Shown piece after piece: positions 4,452-23,461 of a stretch of DNA of 64,000 nt. Both the position numbers and the translations under genes were made by a program. Source of the stretch: Fundidesulfovibrio agrisoli (GTDB lineage: Bacteria; Desulfobacterota; Desulfovibrionia; Desulfovibrionales; Desulfovibrionaceae); NCBI RefSeq assembly GCF_022808715.1, contig NZ_JAKZKX010000003.1, positions 186,001-250,000 on the forward strand, written 5' to 3'. The notes under the pieces were generated by a model. The model saw only the letters and a list, made by a program, of their open reading frames with translations, searched no databases and was not told the origin of the DNA. Each line of letters starts with the position of its first letter. Position 1 is the stretch's first letter.

Positions 4452-6530
4452 CTACTGCACCAGCCCGAGCACGGTCTCGAACATCTCGCTGGCGGTGGTG
4501 ATGAGCTTGGCCGCGGCCTTGTAGGCCTGCTGGTACTGCATCACCCTGGTCAGCTCCTCATCCAGGCTGACCCCGGAGACGGACTCGCGCTGGGTGGTCA
4601 GGTCGTCAGAGAGGGTCTGGGCGTAGGTGTACCGTGTGGACATGGCATCCGTGTCCGAGCCGGTCCTGGAGGCCAGGGCAGTCATGAAGTCCTGGAGGGT
4701 GCCGCTGGTCGAGCCCTTGGCCTGGGTGAAGCCCACGCTGTCGGAGGCCAGCGCGGCCAGGGCCAGGGCCGTGGTGTTGTCCCCGCTGTTGACCTCGCCC
4801 CCGCCGTTGACGTGCCCGGCGCAGAGGCGGTTGGGGTCGTCGGCCACCACGGAGTTCACCGCGATGCTGGCCGCGTCCGTGCCGGAGAACAGGGTGTTGA
4901 TGCCGAGCCCCGCCAGCAGCCCGGAGCTGTCCTCCGCGAACTGGAAGCCCACGCCGTCGGCGGCCTGAATCGAAAGCTGGCCGTTCTGCACGCTGGCGGA
5001 GAGCTGCCCGGAGTAGCTGGCGTTGATGGCGGCGGCCACGTCGTCCAGGGAGTGCACGGCGGGGTCGAAGGTCGCGGTTCCGGGCGTGACGGAGCTGAAA
5101 TCCAGGCCCGAGACCGAGATGTTCTCCCCCGTGGAGGAGTCGTAGAGCGCGATGGAGACGTTGCCGCTGGCGAGCTTGTCCGCCCAGTACAAGCCGCTCT
5201 GGCTGAGGGGGACGGAGGCGTCCTTCACGGCGTATTCGCCCTGGGCCTCGCTCATGGTGGTCAGGCCCGCGCCTTGGCTGTGGGCGCGGTTGGCGTTCCA
5301 GATCAGGCTCTCGGAGAAGGCGTCCAGCGAGTCCTGGTAGCCGCCGATGTACTGGTCGCGCAGGGCGAAGAGCCCGGCCAGGGAGCCCCCGGAGAGCCTG
5401 TTGGCGTTGTCGTTGCCCGTGAGCGGGGTGACGTTGACCTTTCCGCCCGTGGCCGTGATCCAGTACAGCCCGGTCTTGGGCATCACGTCGAAGCCGTCGC
5501 CCGCGCTCAGGCTGGTGGACGGGGCGGTGTCCGCGCTGGTTGCCGTGCCGAACCAGAGGGACACGCCGTCCACGGTCTCCTTGTGCGCGGAGTCCCCGGC
5601 GGTGAAGTTGCGCACCGAGCCGTCCTCGTTGGTGACCCAGGTTTTCCCTCCATCCAGCGAGACGTTGTAGGTGGCGGCCGTGGACCCGCCGGAGCAGTCC
5701 CCGGCGCTGACCATGCGCACCGTGAGCTCGTTGCTGGACGAGCCCTCGAAGTAGAGCTTGCCGTCGAAGGCGGAATCACCGGTCAGGGCCGCGCTGGCCC
5801 TGGGCGCGCCCACCTGGAGCGAATACGTCTCGGAGCCGTCCACCAGGTTCTGGCCCTCGGCGGTGAGCACCCGCACCTGCCCGTCGTCGCGGGTGATGAC
5901 GTTCACGTCCAGATAGCCGGAGAGCTGGCTTATCAGCAGGTCGCGCTGGTCCTGCAGGCCGCTGGCCTGGTCCGTGCCGCCGATGACCTTGTTGATGCCC
6001 GCGATCTGCTCGAGCAGGCCGTTGACCGTGTCCACCTGGCTGGCGATGGAGTCGTTCACGGAGGCCACCTGGGTGGCCAGGCTGTCCTGGATGGAGTTGA
6101 GCTGCTCGCTGAGGCTCTGGGCGTCGGTGATGACCTGGTTGCGGGCCGCGCTGTTGGAGGCCGAGGCCGAGAGGTCCGACAGCGAGGTCATGAAGGTGTT
6201 CAGGGTGGTGGTGATGCCGCTGTCCCCGGAGGAGTCGTTGAACAGGGACTCCACCTGGGCGAGGTTGGTGGCGATGGTCTCGCAGTAGGAGGTCTGGGCG
6301 GTCTGCTCCAGAGTGCGGCGCTGCAGGAACTTGTCGAGAGCCCGCACGATGCTCTGGATGGAGGCCCCGGTGCCCAGCCCCGAGCGCGAGACCGTGTCCT
6401 CCTGCATGGTCACGGTGCGCCGGGCGTACCCCTCGGTGGAGGAGTTGGCGATGTTGCCGCCGGTGACGTTGAGCGCCACCTGGAAGTTGGAGAGGGCCGT
6501 CTGGCCGATGTTCAGCAGGTTGTTCAGCAT
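4452..6530 (-). CDS. flgK: flagellar hook-associated protein FlgK (HAP1)
   Basis: A 692-residue HAP1 that forms the first hook-filament junction zone. The N-terminus has the axial-protein signature NVTGGNIANSSTEGYARR (residues 21-38), and the C-terminal helix carries GVSLDEELTRVMQYQQAYKAAAKLI, both diagnostic for FlgK. It is longer than the common 550-residue form. An extra region around 270-370 contains SLDGGKTW (291-298), an Asp-box-like motif also seen in the neighbouring FlgL. GGAGG precedes the ATG at 6530. It lies between flgE and flgL in the operon. Confidence 0.93.
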   Translation of the reverse strand: MLNNLLNIGQTALSNFQVALNVTGGNIANSSTEGYARRTVTMQEDTVSRSGLGTGASIQSIVRALDKFLQRRTLEQTAQTSYCETIATNLAQVESLFNDSSGDSGITTTLNTFMTSLSDLSASASNSAARNQVITDAQSLSEQLNSIQDSLATQVASVNDSIASQVDTVNGLLEQIAGINKVIGGTDQASGLQDQRDLLISQLSGYLDVNVITRDDGQVRVLTAEGQNLVDGSETYSLQVGAPRASAALTGDSAFDGKLYFEGSSSNELTVRMVSAGDCSGGSTAATYNVSLDGGKTWVTNEDGSVRNFTAGDSAHKETVDGVSLWFGTATSADTAPSTSLSAGDGFDVMPKTGLYWITATGGKVNVTPLTGNDNANRLSGGSLAGLFALRDQYIGGYQDSLDAFSESLIWNANRAHSQGAGLTTMSEAQGEYAVKDASVPLSQSGLYWADKLASGNVSIALYDSSTGENISVSGLDFSSVTPGTATFDPAVHSLDDVAAAINASYSGQLSASVQNGQLSIQAADGVGFQFAEDSSGLLAGLGINTLFSGTDAASIAVNSVVADDPNRLCAGHVNGGGEVNSGDNTTALALAALASDSVGFTQAKGSTSGTLQDFMTALASRTGSDTDAMSTRYTYAQTLSDDLTTQRESVSGVSLDEELTRVMQYQQAYKAAAKLITTASEMFETVLGLVQ

Positions 6531-6568
6531 GGGGTGCCTCCTCGTCCGCCTGGGGGTGCGAAACCGCG

Positions 6569-8140
6569 CTACCTTTTGAGCTGGATGAGTTCCTGGAGCA
6601 TGCTGTCCACGGTGCTGATGACCTTGCTGTTGGCCTGGAAGCCGCGCTGGTAGCTGATCATGTTCACCATCTCCGTGGCGGTATCCACGTTGGACTGCTC
6701 CAGCTTGCCCGAGGCGATGCTGCCCATGCCCGCCGTGTTGGCCGTGCCGATGCGCGGCTCCCCCGAGTCCAGGGTCTTGCTGTAGAGGTTGCCCCCCTCG
6801 CGCCGCAGGCCCTGGAGGTTGGTGAAGTCCGCCAGGCCCACCACGAACAGGTTCTTGGTCTGGTTGTTGGAATACTTGCCCGAGACCACCCCGTCGGAGT
6901 CAACGCTCACGCTCTGCAGGAACCCGGAGGCGTAGCCGTCCTGGGATTCGTCGGCGATGCTGAAGGCGCTGGAGAAGTTGGTGGTCGTGGTGTCGTCGGC
7001 TTTGGCGCTGACCATGCCGGGCAGGTTGTCCGGGTCCGTGCCCACCAGGGAGGCGTTGGCCACGCCGCCGCTCCAGCCACCGTTGGTGGCCGTGCTGTGG
7101 ATGCCCAGGTCCAGCTTGACGTTCACGGCGTTGGCCGCGCTGGTGGTGCTGGCGTTGGAGGCCTGGGCGAAGTTGGCCGTGAGCAGGGGGTAGCCGTCGG
7201 TGGAGAAGCTGGCCGGCACCCAGTTGGAGAGGTCCTTGAAGTCGCCCGTGGCGTTGGAGCTCAGGGTGAAGGCGCTCATGCTGGAGATGGAGCCCGACGG
7301 ATCGAAGGAGAGGGTGCCCGTCATCAGGATGCCCGCCGAGGAGGTGGTGCTGACCTTGACCCCGTTGATGGTGCGGCCGTCTTCCGTGGGGTCGCAGGCC
7401 ACCACGTATTCCCAGACGTCCTTGCCGGAGGCGTTGCTGGCCTTGTCGAAGTAGATGGTCACATCGTGGGAGGTGCCCGCCTGGTCGTAGATCTTGAGCG
7501 TGCTCTGGTAGGCGTAGCTGGAGTCGCCCAGGGGCGTGTCCGACTGCCCCGCCCAGCTCTTGAACATGGCGAAGAAGGGGTCGGTGGCGTCGTTGGTCTT
7601 CTCCTCGGCCTCGGCGTTGAGGTTGGTGACCATGCGCAGCTTGGTGCTGGCCGAAGGGGCCAGCTGGTAGCTGGTCAGCTTGATGTCGCTCAGGGAGCCG
7701 ATGTTGGAGACCTTGCCCGTGGCGCTGTCCGTGTAGGCCTTCCAGCCCTGGCAGATGTAGCCGTTGGGGTCCACCAGGTAGCCGTTCTTGTCGAAGGTGA
7801 AGTTGCCCGCGCGGGTGTAGTAGAGGTTCTCCGAGTTGGGGTTGTGCACCATGAAGAAGCCGTTGCCGCTGATGGCCATGTCCGTGGAGGAGCTGGTGTC
7901 CTGGAAGGAGCCCTGGGAGAAGTCGCCGTAGAGGCTGGCGATGTTGGCGCCCATGCCCACCTGCCCGAAGGTGCCGCCGGTGGTCACGTTGGAATAGAAG
8001 AAGTCCTCGAATTGCACGCTGGTGCGCTTGAAGCCCATGGTGCTCGTGTTGGCCAGGTTGTTGCCGATGACGGACATGGCCTGGCTGTGGATGCTCAGGC
8101 CGGAGATGCCGGTGTACATGGCGGACATGAGGGAGGACAT
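6569..8140 (-). CDS. flgE: flagellar hook protein FlgE
   Basis: A 523-residue hook subunit that polymerises into the flexible universal joint between rod and filament. The N-terminus has the rod/hook motif (LSIHSQAMSVIGNNLANTST, residues 15-34) and the C-terminal domain has LEQSNVDTATEMVNMISYQRGFQANSKVI, the second axial-family signature. The central Ser/Thr/Asp-rich region is variable surface. The length matches long hook proteins. The ATG at 8140 has CAGGAG upstream. It sits 24 bases after flgD, which encodes its assembly scaffold, in the expected order. Confidence 0.94.
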   Translation of the reverse strand: MSSLMSAMYTGISGLSIHSQAMSVIGNNLANTSTMGFKRTSVQFEDFFYSNVTTGGTFGQVGMGANIASLYGDFSQGSFQDTSSSTDMAISGNGFFMVHNPNSENLYYTRAGNFTFDKNGYLVDPNGYICQGWKAYTDSATGKVSNIGSLSDIKLTSYQLAPSASTKLRMVTNLNAEAEEKTNDATDPFFAMFKSWAGQSDTPLGDSSYAYQSTLKIYDQAGTSHDVTIYFDKASNASGKDVWEYVVACDPTEDGRTINGVKVSTTSSAGILMTGTLSFDPSGSISSMSAFTLSSNATGDFKDLSNWVPASFSTDGYPLLTANFAQASNASTTSAANAVNVKLDLGIHSTATNGGWSGGVANASLVGTDPDNLPGMVSAKADDTTTTNFSSAFSIADESQDGYASGFLQSVSVDSDGVVSGKYSNNQTKNLFVVGLADFTNLQGLRREGGNLYSKTLDSGEPRIGTANTAGMGSIASGKLEQSNVDTATEMVNMISYQRGFQANSKVISTVDSMLQELIQLKR

Positions 8141-8164
8141 GGCGTTGGCTCCTGGCGGTTCCGG

Positions 8165-8839
8165 TTAGGCGTCCGTGTTGGCGACGCTCTGGATGTTGGC
8201 GAGGCTGACTTCGCGCCCGTCCGTCAGGGTGAGCATCACCGTGCCGCTTGTGACGCTGACCCCGCTGACCACGCCCGAAACCACCGTGCTGGCGGTGACC
8301 GTCTCGCCCGAGGAGTTCTTCCCGGCCACGGCCAGGGAGTAGGTGCCGTCCGCCACGGTGGCCCCGCTGGAGTCCTTGCCGTCCCACTGGAAGCTGTAGG
8401 TGCCCGCGCTTTTGTCCCCCAGGCTGACCTTGCGCACCACGCTGCCGTCGCTGTCGTAGAGGTAGGCGGTGAGGTCCGTGAGGCTGGAGGAGAGCGTGTA
8501 GGACGAGGTGCTGGCCGTGCCGTCCGACACCTGGAGGCTGGAGCCCACGGCGCTCACGGACTTGCCGATGTAGGCCGCCGCGCTGGTGGCGGACTGCGTG
8601 TTCATGGCCGAAAGCATGGAGGTGAGCGAGGTGTTCATGTTGGTCAGCTGCTCCAGCATGGAATACTGGGTCAGCTGGCTGACCATCTGGTCCGTATCCA
8701 TGGAGCTGTCGTAGCTCTGGTTCTTCAGCTGGGCGACGAGGATCTGCAGGAATGCGTCCTTGTCGATGGACGATGAAGACGAACTGGAGCTGGAGCTGGT
8801 GCCGATGCTGTTCAGGTACGAGGTGGTGTCGATGCTCAT
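8165..8839 (-). CDS. flgD: flagellar hook assembly scaffold FlgD
   Basis: A 224-residue hook-capping protein, needed for FlgE polymerisation and then removed. After a Ser-rich stretch (residues 14-25), residues 26-70 match the FlgD N-terminus (KDAFLQILVAQLKNQ, then DQMVSQLTQYSMLEQLTNMN). Residues 80-224 form the FlgD Ig/Tudor-like part, ending with LTLTDGREVSLANIQSV. GGGAGA precedes the ATG at 8839. It is the first structural gene of the operon, 45 bases downstream of a sigma-region-4-like gene. Confidence 0.93.
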   Translation of the reverse strand: MSIDTTSYLNSIGTSSSSSSSSSSIDKDAFLQILVAQLKNQSYDSSMDTDQMVSQLTQYSMLEQLTNMNTSLTSMLSAMNTQSATSAAAYIGKSVSAVGSSLQVSDGTASTSSYTLSSSLTDLTAYLYDSDGSVVRKVSLGDKSAGTYSFQWDGKDSSGATVADGTYSLAVAGKNSSGETVTASTVVSGVVSGVSVTSGTVMLTLTDGREVSLANIQSVANTDA

Positions 8840-8884
8840 GGCGTGATCTCCCGTGTGTTGCGTGGTCGCTTGTCGGCGGCGGGT

Positions 8885-9448
8885 TCAGCAGGCGCCGCAA
8901 CGTTTCAGGGCCAGCCACTCGTGCTGGAGCAGCTCCATGGCCTGCCACTGGAGGGTGCGCACCTCCTGGGAGGAGACGCCGAGCATCCCGGCGGCCTGGG
9001 GCACGGAGCAGCCCTCGCCGTAGATCAGGCGCAGCACGCACTTCTGGGAGGGGGAGAAAAGCTGGTCCAGGCCGCTCAGGTGGTCCTCGGCCCCGGTGAC
9101 GTCCACATCCATGCAGCGGAAGATCTCGGCCAGGGTGGACTGGGCGTAGTGGGCGTGGCGCACGTAAGCCAGTGCGCACTCCCGGGCCATGACCACCATG
9201 CAGGTCTGCACGGAGCAGCTTTCGTTCTGTTCGAGGTAGCGGGGGTTCTGGGCGTCCTGGATCATGCGGTCCAGGATGATGCGCTTCACGCGCTTGACGT
9301 CTTCGTGCTCGCATCTGCCCGTGTGCTTCTCCAGAACGAAGCTGGCGACGCGCTCGATCATGTTCCAGCAGGACTGGGCCGTGGGCGCGTCCACCATGTA
9401 TATCTTGCCGAGCAGCTCTTTCGCGAAGTCCTCGATGACCTGTTGCAT
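8885..9448 (-). CDS. orphan sigma-70 region 4-like HTH protein heading the flagellar operon
   Basis: A 187-residue soluble protein of unassigned family. Residues 131-173 (LFSPSQKCVLRLIYGEG to VRTLQWQAMELL) read as a sigma-70 region 4 / helix-turn-helix. Residues 1-125 lack the conserved region 2 core-binding and -10 recognition motifs but are helical. It contains ten Cys, including a closing CGAC. The start at 9448 is set by GGAGGTGACG just upstream. It is transcribed into flgD 45 bases later. A role as a regulator or sigma-like co-factor of the hook operon is an inference from position. It could instead be a degenerate ECF sigma. Confidence 0.6.
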   Translation of the reverse strand: MQQVIEDFAKELLGKIYMVDAPTAQSCWNMIERVASFVLEKHTGRCEHEDVKRVKRIILDRMIQDAQNPRYLEQNESCSVQTCMVVMARECALAYVRHAHYAQSTLAEIFRCMDVDVTGAEDHLSGLDQLFSPSQKCVLRLIYGEGCSVPQAAGMLGVSSQEVRTLQWQAMELLQHEWLALKRCGAC

Positions 9449-9542
9449 GCCGTCACCTCCCGTGATGCGGGATGCGTGCGCCCATGGGCTCCGCGCAGCG
9501 GAGGTCTGGCGCTTATCCGTGTCCCTTTGCATGGATATACGG

Positions 9543-9575
9543 ACGGGGGGATGCGAAACATCCACGGGGGGATGC
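9543..9575. repeat. direct repeat upstream of the flagellar operon
   Basis: ACGGGGGGATGC occurs at 9543-9554 and again at 9564-9575, a 21-base period (two helical turns). It lies about 95-130 bases upstream of the first gene of the leftward flagellar operon, in the 307-base gap 9449-9755. Two identical sites on one face of the helix suggest a regulator binding site. No clear sigma-54 or sigma-28 promoter was found in the gap. Confidence 0.45.
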
Positions 9576-9755
9576 AAGAATTTTCAGAAAGTTGAGGCCG
9601 AGGGGTAAAGTATTTCCACTATACTGAAATGATGGGTGAATTTTTTGGCGTGGGGGAGGCGGTTTCGTGTCCGGCTGTCAGGCGGGGCGGAGATGACGGA
9701 GGGGAAGCGGGAGGCGGATACGCCGTGCGGGGGGGCCGCCCGGCGGGGGAGGGCG

Positions 9756-10658
9756 TCAGTTGAAGTAGCGGCTGGCCGGGGCGATGTCCTTGATGGTGAT
9801 GGGGCTGCCCTTGACCACGATGAACTCGCTGCCGCCCACGGTGTCGGCGGCGGCGGGGTTCCAGTCGTAGGTGTAGCCCAGGCCCGTCCAGGGGTAGGGG
9901 CCGCCGGAGATCGAGGGGTTGAAGATGGCGCCCTCGCGCTGGGCGAACCACACGGGGTAGTCCGGCGCGGTCCCGAAACCAGGGGCGGGCGCGCTCTGGG
10001 GCAGGGGCACGGCGGCCACGTTGGCCACCGTCTGCAGGGTGAGGGGGAAGGCCGCCTCGGCCTGGTGGGAATCGATGGCAGGGTCTATGGCCGGGCGCAG
10101 CATGGACGAGGGCGAGGCCCAGAAGGTCAGCACAGTGTCGTTGGCGTTGCGGGCGGGCAGGCCCAGATACATGGAGGCGGCCAGCTTGCCGTTGGCCGAC
10201 GCCAGCTCCGGGGCCTCGGCGCGCACATCCTGGTACATCTGGGGCGCGGGCGTGACCCAGAGGTCCACTGCGGCCGGGATGGTCTGGCCGGATTTGTAGC
10301 CGGTGTAATAGGCGGCCTTGGTGAAGGTGGCCACCAGCACCTGGCTCTTGCCTGGTTCGCCGCTCCAGACCAGGTTGGGGTTGGAGGCGTCGATGTCCCA
10401 GACGGCGGCGGCGGAGGGGGGCGTCTGCACGTGCAGCAGGTCGGCCTGGGCCTGGGGCACGGCCGCGGCGTAGAGGGCGTCGAAGGGGGCGAAGAGTTGG
10501 TCTTCCAGAGTGGACGTTTGGCTCGTTTGGGCCTGGGCCGGGGCGGCGAGGGCGAACCACAGGCATGCCAGCAGGGCCGGGAATCCGGCCCAAAGGCTGC
10601 CGGGTGGGGGGCAAGGTGTGCTGGCCGGCGCGCGGGCGGAAGCAGAGGCCGGGGTCAA
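9756..10658 (-). CDS. exported protein of unknown function
   Basis: A 300-residue protein with a probable signal peptide: a hydrophobic run at about 26-43 (FPALLACLWFALAAPAQA) ending in an AxA cleavage site. The mature part is rich in Ala, Pro and aromatic residues, with no Cys, no haem motif and no membrane segment. Its C-terminal segment (about 215-300) repeats short Gly/Pro/Trp-containing loops and ends in SRYFN. I do not recognise the family. The assigned start leaves a long Ala/Pro-rich n-region with little positive charge, so a downstream non-ATG start is possible. It stands alone, transcribed leftward, separated from the flagellar operon by a 307-base gap. Confidence 0.6.
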   Translation of the reverse strand: MTPASASARAPASTPCPPPGSLWAGFPALLACLWFALAAPAQAQTSQTSTLEDQLFAPFDALYAAAVPQAQADLLHVQTPPSAAAVWDIDASNPNLVWSGEPGKSQVLVATFTKAAYYTGYKSGQTIPAAVDLWVTPAPQMYQDVRAEAPELASANGKLAASMYLGLPARNANDTVLTFWASPSSMLRPAIDPAIDSHQAEAAFPLTLQTVANVAAVPLPQSAPAPGFGTAPDYPVWFAQREGAIFNPSISGGPYPWTGLGYTYDWNPAAADTVGGSEFIVVKGSPITIKDIAPASRYFN

Positions 10659-10713
10659 GGACGGCCTCCATGGGGCGCGGCCGCTGCCGGCCGGGGCGCG
10701 GGCATGGCGCCCG

Positions 10714-11466
10714 TCATGCGGTCGCTGCGCCCTGGGCCGGGGCCATCTTTTCGCAGTAGCGGATGAACTTGTGGGCCTCGGCGAATCCGGGATTGAGCTC
10801 AGTGGCCTTGCTCAGCACGCCGATGCACTGCTGCATGTCGCCCTTGTCGAAATGCACGCGGGCCAGGTTGAAGTAGATGTGCTCGTCGTCGTCGCGGATT
10901 TCCAGGGCCCTGTTGAAGAACTGGATGGATTCGTCCAGCAGGCCCTTCTTGCGCAGGTTGACCCCGAAGCTGTTGAGCTTCTGGCGGTATTCCACGGTGA
11001 AGGCCTCGTCGAGCCCCATGAGCACGGAGAGCACCTTGTGCAGCTTCGCGAACTCGCCCTGCTCTGTGTAGACGTCGCCCAGGCCATAGTTGGCGGGCAC
11101 GCTCATCTCGTCGACCATCAGGGCCTTGAGGAAGGAGCGCTCCGCGTCGTCGAGCAGGCCCATGGAGAAGAACTTCTCCCCCTGGTCGATCTTGGCCTTG
11201 AGGGTCCTCAGGGCGGGCACGGTGTTGGTTTCGTAGTAGCGCGGCTCCGGGGTGTGGGTGCGCATGAACAGGTCGAGGTTCATGGCCTTCTTGATGCCGG
11301 AGGGCACGTGGTAGGTGTTGAGCGGCTGCGTCTCCACCTGGGCGGGGTCAAGCTGGCGGGCGTACCAGTAGGTGACCTGCTCGTGCCTGTGCTGGGTCGA
11401 GCCGGTGCCGACATCTTCGACTTTTTGCAAGGAAAACACGCCGAGAATAACAGGAAAATCACTCAT
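10714..11466 (-). CDS. TPR-repeat protein
   Basis: A 250-residue soluble protein. Residues about 85-240 are tetratricopeptide repeats: a unit near ALRTLKAKIDQGEKFFSMGLLDDAERSFLKAL, one with LLDESIQFFNRALEI, and one with YFNLARVHFDKGDMQQCIGVLSKATELNPGF. TPRs mediate protein-protein contacts. The first 70 residues carry no known motif. The ATG at 11466 has GGTGAG upstream; a GTG nine bases earlier is an alternative. The repeat style resembles the pseudo-receiver TPR protein at 30532-31860, including the closing phrase (A/K)-x-ELNPGF. Its partner is unknown. Confidence 0.72.
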   Translation of the reverse strand: MSDFPVILGVFSLQKVEDVGTGSTQHRHEQVTYWYARQLDPAQVETQPLNTYHVPSGIKKAMNLDLFMRTHTPEPRYYETNTVPALRTLKAKIDQGEKFFSMGLLDDAERSFLKALMVDEMSVPANYGLGDVYTEQGEFAKLHKVLSVLMGLDEAFTVEYRQKLNSFGVNLRKKGLLDESIQFFNRALEIRDDDEHIYFNLARVHFDKGDMQQCIGVLSKATELNPGFAEAHKFIRYCEKMAPAQGAATA

Positions 11467-11647: not shown

Positions 11648-14401
11648 TCAGGGCACCAGAAAGCGCCCGGTGATGGAATTCGGGTCCGCCATGATGGCCT
11701 CGGGCGTGCCGCTGGAGACCACCTGCCCGCCGTACTCGCCGCCGCCGGGGCCCAGGTCGATCACGTGGTCCGAGGCCATGATGACCTCGGTGTTGTGCTC
11801 GATGACCACCACCGTGGCCCCGCGCTCCACCAACTGGTTGAGCACCTGGATGAGCTTGCCCACCTCGTGCATGTGCAGGCCGGTGGTGGGTTCGTCCAGG
11901 ATGTAGAGCGTGCCGGGCAGGCTGCGCTTGCCCAGCTCCCGCGAGATCTTGATGCGTTGGGCCTCGCCGCCGGAGAGCGTGGTGGCGGGCTGGCCAAGCC
12001 GGATGTATTCGAGCCCCACCTGCTCCAGAATCTCCAGGCGACGAGCCAGGGGCGGGTAGTTCTCGAAGAGCCGCCTGGCGTCGGAAACGGGCAGGTCCAG
12101 GACTTCGGCGATGTTCAGGCCCTTGTGGCGCACCTCCAGGGTCTCGCGGTTGTAGCGCTTGCCGCCGCAGACCTCGCAGGTCACGTGGATGTCGGGCAGG
12201 AAGTGCATCTCCACGGTGATGACGCCGTCGCCCTGGCAGGCCTCGCAGCGCCCGCCGCGCACGTTGAAACTGAAGCGGCCCGGCTTGTAGCCGCGCTTCT
12301 TGGCGTCCGAGGTGGAGGCGAAGATGGTGCGGATCTCGTCGAAGATCTTGGTGTAGGTGGCCGGGTTGGAGCGCGGGGTGCGGCCGATGGGGGTCTGGTC
12401 GATGGAGACGATCTTCTCGATGCGCTCCTGCCCTTCGATGCCGTCGATGAGCCCGGGCAGGTCCACCTTGATGCCGCGCGAGAGCGCCATGTGCTTGTAG
12501 AGGGTGTCCACCACCAGGGAGCTCTTGCCCGAGCCGGAGGGGCCGGTGACGCAGGTCAGGCAGCCCAGGGGGAAGCGCACGTCCAGGCCGCGCAGGTTGT
12601 TGGTGCGCGCGCCGCGCACCTCGAGGTAGCCCTGGTGCTCGCGCCGCTTCTCCGGCCGGGGGATGGAGAGGTCGCCGCGCAGGTAGCGCCCGGTGAGCGA
12701 CTCGGACCCCAGCAGGCTCTTCACGTCGCCCTGGAACACGATTTCGCCGCCGAGCATCCCGGAGCCCGGCCCCAGCTCGATGACGTGGTCCGCGCTCTGG
12801 ATGGTGGCCTCGTCGTGCTCCACCACCAGCACGGTGTTGCCGCGCTCCTTGAGCATGCGCAGGGTGCCCAGCAGGCGTTCGTTGTCGCGGGGGTGCAGGC
12901 CGATGCTCGGCTCGTCCAGCACGTAGGTCACGCCCACCAGGCCGGAACCCAATTGCCCGGCAAGGCGGATGCGCTGGGCCTCGCCGCCGGAGAGCGTGGA
13001 CATGTTGCGGCCCAGGCTCAGGTAATCAAGCCCCACGCCGGAGAGGAAGCGCAGCCGGTGCCCCAGCTCCTTGAGCAGGGGCTCGGCGATCACGGCCTGG
13101 GCCCCGGCGAAGCTGCGGGCCGTGAGCCAGGCCAGGGCGCGCTCGATGGGCATGGAGCAGAAGCCGAAGATGTTCTGGTCGTCCACGCGCACGGCCAGGG
13201 CCTCTGGTTTGAGGCGAGCGCCGTTGCAGGCCGGGCAGGGGCGGCTCTGGCGGAAGCGGGAGAGCTCGTCGCGCCAGATGGAGCCCATGGCCTGGCCCAG
13301 CTCCATCATGTTCACCACACCCTTCCAGCCGATAGCCTCGTCGCCCAGGAACAGAGCCTCCCAGGCCTGGCGGGAGAAATCCTTGAGCGGGGTGGTGAGC
13401 GTGAAGCCGTGGCGCTGGCCCAGCCCGGAGAGCATGTCGCGCTGGCGGGCGAAGAGGCGCTCGTGCTTCCAGGGCAGGATGGCCCCCTGCGCCAGCGAGA
13501 GGCCCTTGTTGGGGGCCAGCAGGTCGGGCTCGAAATATTCCACGCTGCCGATGCCCGCGCACACCGGGCAGGCCCCCTGCGGGCTGTTGAAGGAGAACAG
13601 CTGCGGCGTGGGCGGCGGCACGCTGATCTTGCAGGTGGGGCAGACCGAGGTGGTGGAGAAGAAGCGGTCCCGCGAGTGCTCCATCTCGTGCACGATGAGC
13701 CGTTCAGACCCCTGGGACAAGGCCAGTTCCACCGAGTCGGCCAGGCGCTTGCGGATGTCCGGTTTGGATACCAGCCGGTCCACCACCAGCTCCACGGTGT
13801 GGCGCTTGTTCTTGTCCAGCTCGGGCAGGGGGTCCAGGCCCAGCACCTCCCCGTTGACGCGCACGCGCGCGAAGCCCTGGGCCTTGAGCTTTTTCAGCCG
13901 CTCGGCCTGGGAGCCCTTCTGGTGCTCGGCCAGGGGGGCCAGCACCATGAACTTGGCCCCCTCGGGCAGGGCCAGGATGTCGTCCACGATCTGGTCGGTG
14001 GTCTGGGCCGCGATGGGCAGCCCGCAACTGGGGCAGTGCGGCTTGCCCAGGCGGGCGAAGAACACGCGCAGGAAGTCGTAGATTTCGGTGACCGTGCCCA
14101 CGGTGGAGCGCGGGTTGCGCGTGGCGGACTGCTGCTCCAGGGAGATGGCCGGGGAGAGCCCCTCGATCTTGTCCACCTGGGGCTTGTCCATCTGGGGCAG
14201 GAACTGCCGGGCGTAGGCCGAGAGCGACTCAACGTAGCGGCGCTGGCCCTCGGCGTAGACGATGTCGAAGGCCAGGGTGGACTTGCCCGAGCCCGAAGGC
14301 CCGCAGACCACGACCATCTTGTCGCGGGGGATGTCCAGGGAGACGTTCTTGAGGTTGTGCTGGCGCGCGCCCTCGATATGGATGACTCGGTTGTCGCTCA
14401 T
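11648..14401 (-). CDS. uvrA: excinuclease ABC subunit A (UvrA)
   Basis: A 917-residue DNA damage sensor of nucleotide excision repair, acting with UvrB and UvrC. It has two ABC ATPase modules: Walker [13 protein letters not shown] near residue 35 and [11 protein letters not shown] in the second half. Two LSGGEAQRI signature loops are present. Zinc-finger Cys pairs include CPTC, CPVC, CPAC, CEAC and CEVC. Length is slightly under the usual 940 but the domain order is complete. The ATG at 14401 has GGAG upstream. No SOS-type palindrome like the one upstream of umuD is visible in the 165-base gap before it. Confidence 0.97.
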
Positions 14402-14566
14402 TGAGGCTCCGGGAGGTGAGACTGGAAGAGAGGCAGATAATGCCTAAGGGGAAAAAAGCAAGCGCGGCCGAGATGCTTCGCGGGGCGTTCGAAGAGGCCG
14501 CCAGGTGCCCGCCAAGTGCCCGCCGTATCCGCCTGGAACCCGGTGGGCGGGCTGCGCCGCCCGCGT

Positions 14567-15832
14567 TCAGCCCCCCAGAATGTCCACCAGCAGCAGCACG
14601 TTCAGCGCGATGACCACCGCGGCGACGGCGGCCAGCAGCACCGTGGTGGAGCGGTCGTTGGCCCATTTGCCCATGACCTTCTTGGAACTGGTCAGGTAGA
14701 GCTGCAGGAGCACCGTGAACGGCAACTGGATGGAGAGCACGATCTGGGAGACGATGAGCCCCTGGAACGGGTTGGGGATCGCCAGGATGAGCAGGTAGGC
14801 CGCGAACAGGGTGATACCCACGCCCACCTTGGTGTGCACGTCGCGGATGTTGTAGGGCTCGTTGAAGATGCCCGCGAAGATCGCGCCGCCCGCCATGCCC
14901 GCCGTCACCGAGGAGGCCACGCCCGCCAGCAGCAGCGCCAGCGCGAACACGATGGCGGACGCGCCGCCCACCAGGGGCACCAGCAGGCTCTGGGCCTGCT
15001 CCAGCTCCGTGACCTGCGCGCCGGAGCTGTGGAAGGCCGAGGCCGCCAGCAGGATCATGGCCGAGTTGATGGCCCAGCCCACGATCATGGAGACCAGCGT
15101 GTCCATGAACTCGTACTTGAGCTGATGGTGGATCACCTCGTCGTTGTCCAGGTTCCACTGCCGGCTCTGGATCACTTCGGAGTGCAGGAACAGGTTGTGC
15201 GGCATGACCACCGCGCCCAGCACGCTCATGATGACCGGGATGGAACCCTCGGGGAAGCTGGGCACCACCCATCCGGCGGCGGCGCGCAGCCAGTCCACTT
15301 CCACCATGGCCAGCTCGAACACGAAGGAGAGCCCGATGAGCGAGACGAAGCCGATGATGACCCGTTCGAGGCGCTTGTAGGAGTTGGCGAACAGCATCCA
15401 GCTCACCAGGGCCAGCACCATGAGCCCGCCCAGCCACAGCGGCAGGCCGAAGATCATGCGCAGGGCGATGGCCCCGCCCAACAGTTCGGCCAGGGCCGTG
15501 GAGACCGAGGCCAGCACCGCCGAGCCCAGCAGCGGGCGCGAGGCCCAGGGCGGCAGGTGGCGCGACGCGCCCTCCGAGAGGCACAGCCCGGTGGCTATGC
15601 CCAGGTGCGCGGCGTTGTGCTGCAGGACGATGAGCATCACCGTGGAGAGCGTGACCATCCACAGCAGCTTGTAGCCGAACCCGGCGCCAGCGGCCACGTT
15701 GGAGGCCCAGTTGCCGGGGTCGATGAAGCCGACTGTGACCAGCAGGCCCGGGCCGATGTATTTCCATATCTCCAGGGCCATGAAGCGCGGCTTGTGCCGC
15801 GCCCGGAGATCGGCCAGTACCTTGGTGAACAT
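14567..15832 (-). CDS. mntH: Nramp-family divalent metal (Mn2+/Fe2+) transporter
   Basis: A 421-residue inner-membrane protein with about eleven hydrophobic segments. The two metal-binding helices of the Nramp fold are visible: DPGNW at about residue 39 in the first, and MPHNLFLHSEVIQSR in the sixth. Family members import Mn2+ or Fe2+ with protons. A charged N-terminal tail (MFTKVLADLRARHKPR) precedes the first helix. It lies 58 bases downstream of an 82-residue small protein on the same strand, so the two may share a transcript. No MntR or Fur box was recognised. The exact metal is not readable from sequence. Confidence 0.92.
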   Translation of the reverse strand: MFTKVLADLRARHKPRFMALEIWKYIGPGLLVTVGFIDPGNWASNVAAGAGFGYKLLWMVTLSTVMLIVLQHNAAHLGIATGLCLSEGASRHLPPWASRPLLGSAVLASVSTALAELLGGAIALRMIFGLPLWLGGLMVLALVSWMLFANSYKRLERVIIGFVSLIGLSFVFELAMVEVDWLRAAAGWVVPSFPEGSIPVIMSVLGAVVMPHNLFLHSEVIQSRQWNLDNDEVIHHQLKYEFMDTLVSMIVGWAINSAMILLAASAFHSSGAQVTELEQAQSLLVPLVGGASAIVFALALLLAGVASSVTAGMAGGAIFAGIFNEPYNIRDVHTKVGVGITLFAAYLLILAIPNPFQGLIVSQIVLSIQLPFTVLLQLYLTSSKKVMGKWANDRSTTVLLAAVAAVVIALNVLLLVDILGG

Positions 15833-15890
15833 GAGGATTCCCGAAGAAAGGGAAAGCGCCCCGTGGCGCTTTCCCGTTGTTTGCGGCCGG

Positions 15891-16139
15891 CTACTTCTTG
15901 TTTATGGCGTCCAGGTATTCTTCCGCCGCCTTGGAGACGACGTCGTAGAAGCTGGGCTCTTTCTCGGGGTGCCCCGGGCGGACCTCGTCGGCGGCTTTGG
16001 TGGCCTTGCTCATGGCCTCGTCGAAGGCTGCGGGCTCCATGCCGCTGAGCTCCAGGGCCTCCTCGCGGGATATGACGCCCATCTGGGCGAAAACCGCCGC
16101 TGTGACACCCATCACCTTGCGGACATTCTCCTTGGCCAT
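15891..16139 (-). CDS. small hypothetical protein upstream of the metal transporter
   Basis: An 82-residue soluble protein, mostly helical by composition (MGVTAAVFAQMGVISREEALELSGM, then DVVSKAAEEYLDAINKK). No cysteines or metal motif, and I do not recognise a family. The start at 16139 is well supported by AGGAGG eight bases upstream, and the frame has the local GC-rich codon use. It is read leftward and directly precedes the Nramp gene, so a link to metal uptake is conceivable but only from position. Confidence 0.7.
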   Translation of the reverse strand: MAKENVRKVMGVTAAVFAQMGVISREEALELSGMEPAAFDEAMSKATKAADEVRPGHPEKEPSFYDVVSKAAEEYLDAINKK

Positions 16140-16314
16140 CTGAATCCCTCCTCTTGCTTGCGCCCGGGCTCCAAAGGCCTCGGGCGGGGTTGCGATTCGG
16201 CCCGGGCACAACGCCCGGGACAGGCGCGCCCAGGCAGCGTGTGTTCCCGGAAGGGGGAGCGGAGCGGGGCGCGAGCCAGGAGGGCCCGCCGCGCCGGATG
16301 GCTCGAGGCAGGGC

Positions 16315-17577: not shown

Positions 17578-19711
<2,134 letters not shown>

Positions 19712-19836
19712 GTGGGTCTCCGGGCGAGCCGGGTGTGTCGATGGGTCGTATCCGACCTCAGGTAGACTATTTTCGCGTTCTTGAAAAGGTGATAGCCGTG
19801 GGTATTGGCGCCGTTTACTCGCAATAAGGGGCTCTT

Positions 19837-20907
19837 ATGGATCCTACCTCGCTGATACCGCCGGCGGACGCCCTGCCCGCCGCGCCGTGGCTCTTGCGTC
19901 TGCTGCTGGACGCCACCTTCGCGGTGCACCTGCTGCTCATGAACGCCATGCTCGGCCTGACCCTGCTCGGCTTCGCGCGCTCCCTGCGCCAGTCCGAGGG
20001 GGTGGCGCGCCAGGCCTCGCTGGTGCCCACCCTCACGGCCCTGACCGTGAACGTGGGCGTCGCCCCGTTTCTCTTCCTCCAGGCGCTCTACGGTCAGTTC
20101 CTCTACGTGGGCTTCATGCTCATGGGGGTCTACTGGGTGGGGCTGGTGCTGGCGGTGATGGCGGCCTACGGCCTGGCCTACCGCCAGAAGTACGCCCTGG
20201 GCCACACGCCCCACGGGCGCTCCGGCCCGCGCGGAACGCTGGCCTGGGGGGCCATGGCGCTGCTCATGCTCTACGCCTCCCTGGTGCAGGTCAACAACGC
20301 GCTGCTCCTGCAGCGGCCGGATTTCTGGAGCGGCTTCTTCCAGAACGCCACCGGCACCATGACCGCCTTCGCCGACCGCACCTTCGTTCCGCGCTGGCTG
20401 CACTTCGTGTTGGCTTCAGTCTCCATGGGCGGGTTGTGCCTGGCCATGGTGGGGCGCGGCCGCTCCCGCCGGGGCGACCCGCACGGGGCCGCGCTGCAGG
20501 CCGAGGGCATGCGCTGGTTCAGCCACGGCGCGCTGGCAACGGCCGCCGTGGGCCTGTGGTGGCTCATCAGCCTGCCGCGCGAGGCCATGCTCGCTTTCAT
20601 GGGCGGCCACGCCCTGGGCACCGGGCTGCTGCTGGGCGGCGTGGCCTCGGCCGGCGCGGCCGTGGCCTTCGGGCTGCGCGGCAAGGCCATCCCGGCCGCC
20701 TGCGGGGCGGTTGCCACCGTCGGCTTCATGGTGCCCCTGCGCGAGGTTCTGCGCATGATCCAGCTTTCGCCCCACCTCAACGAGGCCGCCATGCCCGTGC
20801 GGCCCGAACCCACCACGGTGGCCATGTTCCTGGGGTGCATGGGCATATCCCTGGCGGTGGTCTGGTGGGCCGCGGCGCGGCCAGTTCCCGACAGGAAGGG
20901 GGCGTAG
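19837..20907 (+). CDS. polytopic membrane protein partnered with a bd-like cytochrome
   Basis: A 356-residue integral membrane protein with about eight or nine hydrophobic segments. The first helix (LLRLLLDATFAVHLLLMNAMLGLTLLG, about residues 18-46) holds a His, and a second His occurs in RWLHFVLASVSMGG. This layout resembles the four-helix quinol-oxidase-like units of the cytochrome bd superfamily. The stop is only four bases before the bd-like/octahaem gene, so the two proteins very probably form one complex. No CxxCH motif. A TTGAAA-N16-TATTGG promoter-like pair lies near 19780 in the gap to coaX. Function inferred from context; the family is not firmly recognised. Confidence 0.65.
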   Translation: MDPTSLIPPADALPAAPWLLRLLLDATFAVHLLLMNAMLGLTLLGFARSLRQSEGVARQASLVPTLTALTVNVGVAPFLFLQALYGQFLYVGFMLMGVYWVGLVLAVMAAYGLAYRQKYALGHTPHGRSGPRGTLAWGAMALLMLYASLVQVNNALLLQRPDFWSGFFQNATGTMTAFADRTFVPRWLHFVLASVSMGGLCLAMVGRGRSRRGDPHGAALQAEGMRWFSHGALATAAVGLWWLISLPREAMLAFMGGHALGTGLLLGGVASAGAAVAFGLRGKAIPAACGAVATVGFMVPLREVLRMIQLSPHLNEAAMPVRPEPTTVAMFLGCMGISLAVVWWAAARPVPDRKGA

Positions 20908-20911
20908 CTCC

Positions 20912-23461
20912 ATGGACTATCCCATTCTGCATTGGAACTGGTGGGGCGGCGGCCTGCTCATCGCCCTGGTGGCCACGATCCACGTGTTCATCGCGCATTT
21001 CGCCGTGGGCGGCGGCCTGTTCATAGCCGTGATGGAGACCCGGGTGCAGCGCCTGGGCCTGGGCACCCTCAAGGACTACCTCCGCCGCTACGCCAAGTTC
21101 TTCCTGGTGTTCACCATGGTGGTGGGCGGGCTCACGGGCGTGGGCATCTGGGTGGTGATCGCCATCGGCGCGCCCGGGGCCACCTCGACGCTCATCCACT
21201 CCTTCGTGTTCGGCTGGGCCACGGAGTGGACATTCTTCCTGGCCGAGATCGTCACCCTGCTGGTGTACATGAGCTCCTTCGAGGCGGAGCGCTCCACCCG
21301 GCGGCTCATCCTGGCCTGGCTCTATTTCGCCTTCGCCTTCGGCTCGCTCACGGTGGTGCAGGGCTTCATCTCCTACATGCTGACCCCCGGGGAGTGGCTG
21401 GCCACCCAGCGCTTCTGGGACGGCTTCTTCAACCCGACCTTTGTGCCCGGGCTGGTGTTCCGCGCCGCTTTCGCGGCCCTTGTCGCGGGCGTGTTCGGCC
21501 TGATAACCGCCCAGGGCGTCGAGGACGAAACCGAGCGCAAGCGGCTCTCCCGCTTCTGCGCGGTGTGGACCATCCTGCCCCTGCCGGCGCTGGCCGCGGC
21601 GGGCTGGTGGCACATCGCCGTGCTCTCGCCGGAGCAGCAGACCCTGGCGCTGGGCCTCTCCCCCGAGGTCGCCTCGGGCATGAAGGCTTTCTGGTGGGCC
21701 TCGCCCTTCGTGGTGGCGGGCGGCGCGATGCTGGCGGGCGGCGTCTCCCGCGAGGTGGCCCGCCCCGTGGCCATCGCGACCATGCTGGCCTCCTTCTGCG
21801 TGCTGGCCTCCTTCGAGTACATGCGCGAGGCCGCGCGCAGGCCGTACCTCATCACCGGCTACATGTACTCGAACGGCATCCCCGTGGCCCGCGCCGGGGA
21901 GCTCAACGCCAAGGGCGCGCTGGCTTCCGCCAAGTGGAGCAAGGTCAAGCAGGTCACGGACGAAAACCGCATGGAGGCCGGCCGCGAACTCTACTACCTG
22001 GAGTGCTCCAGTTGCCACAGCCTGGGCGGCCCCATGCTGGACATGCTGCCCCGCAGCGCCAAGTACTCCGCCTTCGGCATGGAGGCCCTGCTGACCGGCA
22101 TGGGCAAGATCGGCACCTACATGCCGCCTTTCCTGGGCACCCCGCAGGAGAAAACCGCCCTGGCCGCCTGGCTCACCGAGGGGCTTCACGGCCCCCGCAA
22201 GGAGGAGGCCCCCAAGTTCCCGCAGGCTGTCGACGCGGTGCCCGTGTTCACCGACGACACCCCCTACGTGCTCACCGCCGCGCCGGACCGGGGCATCAAC
22301 CTGCTCTCCGACGCCGACGGGCAGTGGACCCTGGGCGTCGGCACGCAGGGGCTCACCGCGCAGCTGATCCGGCGCGACATAGCCCCCGAAGCCGTCACCA
22401 AGGGCGTCACCATGACCTACACCGTGGCCGACGGCCAGGCGGGCAGCCTCCAGCCCCAGGGCAACGCCTTCCGGGCCGAGCTTATCCCGGTGTCGCCCTA
22501 TCCCAAGTCCGGCGGGTTCCAGCCCTATCCGGTGGCCGAGGTCAACGCCTACGACGAATCGGGCAAGCTGCTGGCCAGCACCAGAGTGGTGCTGCCCGTC
22601 TCCACGGAGCTGGGCTGCCGCAACTGCCATGGAGGCCCGTGGAAGCGCGGCGTGGCGGGCATAGCCCCCCCCACCGGGCGAGACGTTCTGGCCGCGCACG
22701 ACAGGCTCTCGGGCACGCGCCTTTCCAAGCAGTCCGGCACGCTGGAGTGCCGCTCCTGCCACCGCGACGCCATCCAGGCCAATGGCCAGCCCAGTGGCCA
22801 GCCCGCCGCCCAGCCCGGCACGGGCGCGAATCCCGGCGGCCCCGGCAGGACCATGAGCCTCTCCGCGTCCATCCACGGGCTGCACGCGGTTTATCTGGCC
22901 GGGCAGGGGGCCAAGGCCTGCGACGCCTGCCACCCCACCAGCCCCACCGGGGCCACCCGCGCCTTCCGCGACCCGCATCAGGAGGCCGGGCTGGACTGCA
23001 CCAACTGCCACGGCGCGCTGGAGGACCACGCCCTCTCCCTGCTGACGCGGGAGAAGGCCCTGGGCGCTCCGGCCGCGGGCAAGCTCATGGGCCTGATAAC
23101 GCCCCGCGACGCCCAGCCCGTGCCGCGCGAACCCTGGGCGCAGGAGCCCCGCTGCCTGACCTGCCACGTGGACTACGGCCCGCCGCAGGGCATGCAGGCC
23201 TACGGCACCTGGAGCAAGGACCGCGCGGCCCTGTTCAAGAACTCCCGCGACGAGATGGGCGCCATGGCCTGCTCCGGCTGCCACAGCTCGGCGCACGCGG
23301 CCTATCCGGCGCGGAACCCCTACGGAAAGATACGCGACGTGCTCCAGCCCATGCAGTACCAGAAGAACACCAACGCCCTCGGTTCGCCCAAGACCTGCAA
23401 GGTCTGCCACACCATGGACATGGACGCCCCGGCGCACCACCCGGGCATGGGCCTGGACTGA
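20912..23461 (+). CDS. cytochrome bd-like membrane domain fused to an eight-haem cytochrome c region
   Basis: An 849-residue membrane protein. Residues 1-335 form about nine transmembrane helices resembling the N-terminal part of CydA (for example LIALVATIHVFIAHFAVGGGLFIAVME and WATEWTFFLAEIVTLL). The GRQPW segment of quinol-using CydA was not seen. Eight CxxCH haem c motifs follow, with first Cys at about residues 365, 569, 613, 670, 696, 748, 787 and 829. The first forms a mono-haem domain next to the membrane part. A 200-residue linker domain separates it from the seven others. It probably passes electrons between periplasmic c-type carriers and a membrane haem site. Whether it reduces O2 is unknown. 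Confidence 0.82.
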   Translation: MDYPILHWNWWGGGLLIALVATIHVFIAHFAVGGGLFIAVMETRVQRLGLGTLKDYLRRYAKFFLVFTMVVGGLTGVGIWVVIAIGAPGATSTLIHSFVFGWATEWTFFLAEIVTLLVYMSSFEAERSTRRLILAWLYFAFAFGSLTVVQGFISYMLTPGEWLATQRFWDGFFNPTFVPGLVFRAAFAALVAGVFGLITAQGVEDETERKRLSRFCAVWTILPLPALAAAGWWHIAVLSPEQQTLALGLSPEVASGMKAFWWASPFVVAGGAMLAGGVSREVARPVAIATMLASFCVLASFEYMREAARRPYLITGYMYSNGIPVARAGELNAKGALASAKWSKVKQVTDENRMEAGRELYYLECSSCHSLGGPMLDMLPRSAKYSAFGMEALLTGMGKIGTYMPPFLGTPQEKTALAAWLTEGLHGPRKEEAPKFPQAVDAVPVFTDDTPYVLTAAPDRGINLLSDADGQWTLGVGTQGLTAQLIRRDIAPEAVTKGVTMTYTVADGQAGSLQPQGNAFRAELIPVSPYPKSGGFQPYPVAEVNAYDESGKLLASTRVVLPVSTELGCRNCHGGPWKRGVAGIAPPTGRDVLAAHDRLSGTRLSKQSGTLECRSCHRDAIQANGQPSGQPAAQPGTGANPGGPGRTMSLSASIHGLHAVYLAGQGAKACDACHPTSPTGATRAFRDPHQEAGLDCTNCHGALEDHALSLLTREKALGAPAAGKLMGLITPRDAQPVPREPWAQEPRCLTCHVDYGPPQGMQAYGTWSKDRAALFKNSRDEMGAMACSGCHSSAHAAYPARNPYGKIRDVLQPMQYQKNTNALGSPKTCKVCHTMDMDAPAHHPGMGLD

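Follow-up and report, generated by a model that had tools for sequence, protein, structure and literature searches.

RESULTS

The gene pair and its host

Two adjacent genes on the forward strand of a 64,000-nucleotide stretch of Fundidesulfovibrio agrisoli DNA (contig NZ_JAKZKX010000003.1, positions 186,001 to 250,000; here called the window) encode a putative respiratory unit in which a cytochrome bd-like membrane core is joined to a chain of c-type haem motifs. The upstream gene (19837 to 20907) encodes a small subunit of 356 amino acids. After a spacer of 4 nt between the open reading frames (ORFs; 20908 to 20911), it is followed by the gene for a large subunit of 849 amino acids (20912 to 23461). 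The large subunit consists of an eight-helix CydA-like core (residues 1 to 345; 20912 to 21946), a mono-haem cytochrome c domain with CSSCH at residue 365 (residues 346 to 430; 21947 to 22201), a strand-rich linker domain (residues 431 to 565; 22202 to 22606), and a seven-haem module (residues 566 to 849; 22607 to 23458). Its CxxCH motifs start at residues 365, 569, 613, 670, 696, 748, 787, and 829. The ORFs thereby confirm the first-pass annotation of this DNA, which had described two genes four bases apart and an 849-residue protein with eight CxxCH motifs arranged as one plus seven.

The small gene lies directly upstream of the large gene in 25 of 26 loci, the window's counted, and the pairing is therefore not due to chance. 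At the 26th locus, L024, the large gene begins 510 bases from the start of the available sequence. In all likelihood the host is a sulfate-reducing member of the Desulfovibrionales. Its genome (3.94 Mb in 52 contigs) has one canonical CydA match and one CydB match elsewhere, together with five ORFs that account for six class III cytochrome c matches; the decahaem protein of a second host locus, L030, is among them.

The large subunit belongs to the cytochrome bd superfamily

A Pfam scan of the window's large protein alone matched cytochrome c families, and a PDB search with this single sequence returned nothing useful. We then compared the family as a whole. PF01654 was matched at E ≤ 1 by 20 of the 26 family members (best E value, 1.2e-14), and the family profile matched Geobacillus CydA (5doq_A) in the PDB with an E value of 1.1e-5. 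A profile of 73 core sequences aligned with a 14-sequence canonical CydA profile at an E value of 9e-8, versus 0.13 for CydB. An AlphaFold2 model of the large protein, built from 26 sequences without templates, had a predicted local distance difference test score (pLDDT) of 79, and in a Foldseek search with this model the top 18 matches were all cytochrome bd chains. The first 10 had E values of 1.6e-6 to 3.5e-5 and were judged to be subunit I from chain letter and length. The window core is only 15% identical to Escherichia coli CydA over aligned positions. Profiles and the predicted structure together identify the large subunit as a member of the cytochrome bd superfamily with a CydA fold, in agreement with the CydA-like membrane core of the first-pass annotation.

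In E. coli bd-II, the ligands are described as His186 and Met393 for haem b558, Glu445 for b595, and His19 for haem d (PMC8585947), and in bd-I Glu99 is described as adjoining haem d (PMC6853902). We counted the corresponding residues in 73 distinct family cores, the window's among them, a set selected for similarity at core E < 1e-30. All 73 kept the counterparts of His19, Glu99, Glu107, Glu445, Arg448, and Pro450, and His24, Glu105, Glu112, and Glu306 of the window align with the first four of these. The b558 ligand His186 was kept in none of the 73, and Met393 aligned with a methionine in one. Loss of the b-haem ligands had been named beforehand as evidence against a bd relationship; what was lost from the large subunit is the b558 pair, but the O2-site ligands are present in every core.

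The quinol-site motif GRQPW had been reported as not seen. The region is in fact present in degenerate form, reading ARRPY in the window (residues 308 to 312). Its R and P occur in every one of the 73 cores; the Q position holds R in 56, K in 12, G in 4, and H in 1, and the W position holds Y in 62, F in 5, W in 5, and H in 1. That the large subunit has no quinol site was upheld, as the positions of the Q-loop residues Lys252 and Glu257 fall in a gap in all 73 cores. Judged by these alignments, the large core retains residues for both high-spin haems at the O2 site of bd enzymes, presumably of type b or d, and lacks the Q-loop and the two b558 ligands.

The chain of c-type haems is predicted to be periplasmic

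In the 26 aligned large proteins, motifs 1 to 7 are strict CxxCH throughout, and the eighth is strict in 24. The two others, L006 and L027, have CxCH at this position, and in them this haem may be absent or attached in another way. Met404 in the mono-haem domain is invariant (26/26) and is likely to be the sixth ligand, which would make residues 346 to 430 a His/Met cytochrome c. Outside its motifs, the seven-haem module has exactly seven histidines that are invariant in all 26 proteins (596, 655, 658, 689, 795, 842, and 843), and their number fits a set of seven bis-His haems. Counts of lysine plus arginine were 3, 3, 3, and 2 in the inner loops and 0, 0, 1, and 0 in the outer loops. This charge pattern fits an eight-helix chain with its N terminus and its C-terminal haems in the periplasm. 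The earlier view of a seven-haem module suited to exchange with periplasmic cytochrome c pools was upheld, the c-type domains being predicted on that side of the membrane.

The small and large subunits are paralogues

The window's small subunit had no Pfam or NCBIfam match, and a search of the PDB with the small-subunit profile yielded nothing useful. When small- and large-subunit profiles were compared with hhalign, they matched with an E value of 1e-6 for the first sets and 1e-10 for the wide sets, indicating that the two subunits are paralogues. The match of the small-subunit profile to CydA was weak (E = 0.036 with 25 sequences and 0.003 with a wider set). The small-subunit model (pLDDT 81) has nine long helices, and Foldseek matched it to both CydA and CydB chains; the four matches at E ≤ 0.001 were A chains.

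We considered the small subunit as a possible CydB and ruled this out by sequence, the E value being 0.3 to CydB versus 1e-10 to the core profile. A family search with 25 small subunits gave no PF02322 (CydB) match, and the sole PF02322 match in the host genome is on a different contig from the unit. Comparison with CydA and CydB, as the first-pass annotation had suggested, therefore bore out a CydA-like large subunit, but the second protein proved to be its paralogue and not CydB.

In the wide alignment, His31 of the small subunit falls on His19 and His189 on His186. All 70 distinct small-subunit sequences have His31, His189, Met298, and Arg302, and from these residues we infer that the small subunit carries a low-spin haem b. 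Because the small subunit may bind haem, we kept a role toward the quinone pool as a rival explanation, although the less likely one. The unit would then be a cytochrome c:menaquinone oxidoreductase, in which the haem chain conducts electrons from the periplasm to the small-subunit b haem and menaquinone is reduced or drawn on, the bd-like dihaem site being a relic or a redox relay. The four invariant residues, with His189 aligned to a b558 ligand, would suit such an enzyme. So would those relatives that lie beside formate dehydrogenase (FDH) in an arrangement like that of FdhM, described as a membrane-associated FDH of Desulfovibrio vulgaris (PMC10920352), and the connection between periplasmic cytochrome c3 and menaquinone that is described for Qrc of sulfate reducers (PMC4215793). 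Menaquinone chemistry would leave the retention of the His19, Glu99, Glu107, Glu445, Arg448, and Pro450 counterparts in 73 of 73 cores without a reason, however, and it sits poorly with the deletion of the large-subunit Q-loop and with the defence genes found, by eye, beside the unit at 6 of 41 loci (see below). We think it unlikely.

Some gene neighbourhoods include formate dehydrogenase or O2 and peroxide defence

At L030 in the host genome, a decahaem relative of the module is followed by FdhA (TIGR01553, 1372.8 bits, above the cut-off) and an FdhB-like protein (TIGR01582, 151.2 bits, below the cut-off). In a tblastn search across L001 to L097, relatives of FdhA and FdhB turned up next to the module only in L037, L034, and L007, and there was no FdhA match at loci other than those with FDH genes beside the module. 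L034 and L007 share the order small subunit, CydA-like protein, protein with 9 to 10 haems, FdhA, FdhB on one strand, the small gene of L007 being incomplete because it runs off the sequence. L030 and L037 have the seven-haem-type module with FdhA and FdhB and without bd genes. L031 and L032 have a split unit with no FDH beside it within the available stretch. We also noted that the decahaem relative, FdhA, and the FdhB-like protein of L030 lie together with a divergent haem-copper oxidase cluster (L030 positions 9022 to 10938, with 5273 to 9011 and 12366 to 16211), which comprises COX1 and COX2 with haem c.

For defence genes, the ORFs at 41 loci were judged by eye and ten were checked on Pfam. 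The genes confirmed by Pfam beside the unit encode a flavodiiron protein at L003 (together with canonical cydAB) and another at L045, a PF00141 peroxidase at L008, AhpC/TSA at L084 and L096, and CCP_MauG at L092. The L003 flavodiiron protein resembles the NO-reductase flavorubredoxin (474.7 bits versus a cut-off of 635). Clustering of neighbours over 38 loci revealed no dominant partner, the largest cluster comprising 6 loci.

The peroxidase, AhpC/TSA, and flavodiiron neighbours, the last including the flavorubredoxin-like protein of L003, would also suit a detoxifying reductase with the same electron path, whose physiological substrate is nitric oxide (NO) or H2O2 and not O2. Canonical bd enzymes are said to share in NO detoxification (PMC10839748). 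Sequence does not separate these substrates, the retained ligands are those of the O2 site, and we consider a primary role in NO or H2O2 removal improbable.

The window unit itself has genes for PanK, enolase, and YkuD as neighbours and no adjacent FDH gene. The enolase and type III pantothenate kinase genes lie upstream of the unit (17578 to 19711), and by eye one or both were also found beside the unit in L004, L006, L038, L046, and L047. Their recurrence suggests a fixed chromosomal place and vertical descent of the unit. The region that separates the unit from the divergent pantothenate kinase gene contains the element TAGACTATTTTC-N6-TTGAAAAGGTGATA (19763 to 19794), which is kept with one or two changes in five of seven aligned near-relative upstream regions, the window's counted. 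It matched no site that we could name; it might serve either gene, as a promoter or as the palindromic site of a regulator.

The core occurs in several architectures

We looked for the unit in relatives, those with names belonging to Desulfovibrio, Pseudodesulfovibrio, other Desulfovibrionaceae, and Desulfobacterales. GTDB genomes supplied seven of the loci. The large protein was matched in 41 of 59 relative genomes, of which, on our reading of the table, 40 had the core and one had only a weak match to the C-terminal part. The core was matched in 56 of 297 genomes of a phylum sample, and the small subunit in 111 of 149 genomes of a class sample.

A survey of two sets, of 18 and 20 loci, distinguished five architectures. 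The first is the octahaem fusion. In the second (L031, L032, and L034), the core and the mono-haem domain (c1) form a protein of 428 to 442 amino acids, followed by a separate gene with 7 to 10 haems. L007 resembles this arrangement, with 9 haem motifs, but its c1 region is disrupted: the CydA-like gene (L007 positions 586 to 2004) loses the haem c reading frame after about residue 345, either because this metagenome-assembled genome is misassembled there or because the gene is truly broken. The third architecture, core plus c1 with an adjoining small gene, was found at 16 mono-type loci (L078 and L083 to L097). None of these 16 has a gene matching the seven-haem profile; three of them (L091, L092, and L095) do contain different ORFs, with 7, 4, and 8 CxxCH motifs, respectively. 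The fourth is a core with two or three CxxCH motifs (L079 to L081). In the fifth (L091 to L094), the small subunit bears two CxxCH motifs and represents another electron-entry design of the same core. An additional protein of about 290 amino acids with two CxxCH motifs adjoins the unit in L091, L093, and L094.

The occurrence of the seven-haem module beside FDH without bd genes (L030 and L037) raised the idea that the core is an inactive bd-like domain, or a purely structural one, that anchors a multihaem cytochrome in the membrane. A mere anchor would hardly be expected to keep six catalytic-site residues invariant despite about 15% identity to E. coli CydA, or to persist with one haem c where the seven-haem module is missing, as at the 16 mono-type loci. 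We give this idea very little credence.

In a tree of the 73 cores and four CydA sequences, the family was split from canonical CydA with 100/100 support. The cores were labeled octa (44), mono (25), tri (3), and none (L007). The tree does not support an octahaem fusion that arose once and was never lost: the octa label needs three changes, at least two of which are forced by well-supported branches, so that the fusion was gained or lost more than once.

DISCUSSION

The loss of the quinol site and of one haem site, together with the gain of an eight-haem periplasmic wire, points to the consumption of O2 with electrons from periplasmic cytochromes. We therefore propose that the pair is probably a quinol-independent membrane O2 reductase of the cytochrome bd superfamily, fed by periplasmic c-type cytochromes. 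Periplasmic formate dehydrogenases and hydrogenases would reduce cytochrome c3, from which electrons would enter the seven bis-His haems and then the His/Met haem c beside the membrane. From haem c they would reach the dihaem site, where O2 would be reduced to water with protons taken from the cytoplasm. The small subunit would be a structural partner with a low-spin b haem at His189/Met298, and in that case the haem functions that CydA combines in one chain would be split between two paralogues. The likely physiological role would be the removal of low levels of O2 in an anaerobe, with some energy conserved. Besides the homology, the residue counts, and the charge pattern, the FDH genes next to the split unit or the module and the defence neighbours at 6 of 41 loci speak for the proposal.

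Several observations weigh against this proposal. In the Pfam scan of the window's large protein alone no bd family was found, PF01654 being unmatched at E ≤ 10. Both predicted models are haem-free, and their chains were modelled singly. Choosing the 73 cores by similarity favours conserved residues, and the weakest matches of the phylum sample were left out. In the segment after the eighth transmembrane helix there are four lysines or arginines, contrary to what a simple charge rule predicts, and three of these lie within or close to ARRPY. The genes next to the window unit itself (PanK, enolase, and YkuD) are uninformative about O2. The Pfam-confirmed defence genes at 6 of 41 loci rest on picks made by eye without a background rate, and the other 35 loci have no confirmed defence neighbour (the FDH genes of L007 and L034 being counted apart). 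The presence of canonical CydB in 38 of 40 core-bearing relatives versus 11 of 19 others (P = 0.001) speaks for the proposal, but in genomes at least 90% complete the association was weaker (37/38 versus 10/13; P = 0.046), and the test ignores kinship.

O2 consumption by strict anaerobes such as Desulfovibrio is a long-standing question. A D. vulgaris mutant without both known membrane oxidases is reported to cope with 0.02% O2 by what its authors call an unknown mechanism (PMC4383621). A quinol-free bd enzyme draining periplasmic cytochromes would be a concrete candidate for the residual O2 handling of this double mutant and, if the proposal is true, would allow O2 chemistry to be studied in a bd enzyme without b558 and without quinol. 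Taken as a whole, a broader claim is more speculative, and we offer it tentatively: sulfate reducers might have a third, overlooked kind of O2 reductase, in which a bd-type dihaem site is wired by 8 to 11 haems c to periplasmic formate dehydrogenase, hydrogenase, or cytochrome c3 and the CydA haem set is split over two paralogues. D. vulgaris FdhM (Cfd) would be its formate:O2 version and possibly the mechanism that offsets the bd/cox double loss.

A scheme of qOR, OR-C, and OR-N classes is in use for the superfamily (PMC10839748, PMC13189123, PMC11707229). With canonical CydAB (qOR) the unit shares its predicted fold and the His19, Glu99, Glu107, and Glu445 counterparts. It differs in having eight haem c motifs and in lacking the features of a canonical qOR, namely, b558 ligands in subunit I, the Q-loop, and a CydB partner. 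OR-N enzymes (CydAA'), described from Nitrospira, Nitrospinota, and archaea, have two CydA-like paralogues, and cytochrome c is the proposed donor (PMC10839748, PMC12342949). Both of these traits have parallels in our unit. OR-N is not known to have haem c on the CydA chain, whereas CxxCH motifs are present in the large chain of the unit.

The gene order of L034 and L007 (small subunit, CydA-like protein, 9- to 10-haem protein, FdhA, FdhB) corresponds to that of FdhM of D. vulgaris (CfdABDE, DVU_2481 to DVU_2484). The masses given for FdhM are 47.7 kDa for CfdD and 61.9 kDa for CfdE (PMC10920352). Those predicted for L034 are 48.0 and 64.4 kDa, and the L007 multihaem protein is predicted to be 63.3 kDa; the other split relatives, without an adjacent FDH, have 47.4 and 54.7 kDa (L031) and 49.5 and 56.6 kDa (L032). 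By gene order and mass, the split unit of L034 and L007 thus fits the little-understood FdhM (Cfd) complex, whose small subunit may be DVU_2485. The window unit departs from FdhM in carrying its multihaem part on the bd-like chain itself and in having no FDH gene next to it.

A literature search aimed at the octahaem fusion or its family found no description in the titles, beginnings of abstracts, and passages covered, and we do not claim its absence from print. The nearest published kind is OR-C, which Murali, Gennis, and Hemp (ISME J, 2021) reportedly defined as a bd-type core without the quinol site and with a c-type haem domain. The unit fits this class, as so described, in its bd-type core, its missing quinol site, and the c-type haem on its CydA chain. 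It differs from OR-C in its small paralogous subunit and in the seven further haem motifs and strand-rich linker behind the mono-haem domain. In our judgement, the unit is a variant on a published bd theme, with a possible link to a formate dehydrogenase that is only partly understood and to the O2 tolerance of the double mutant.

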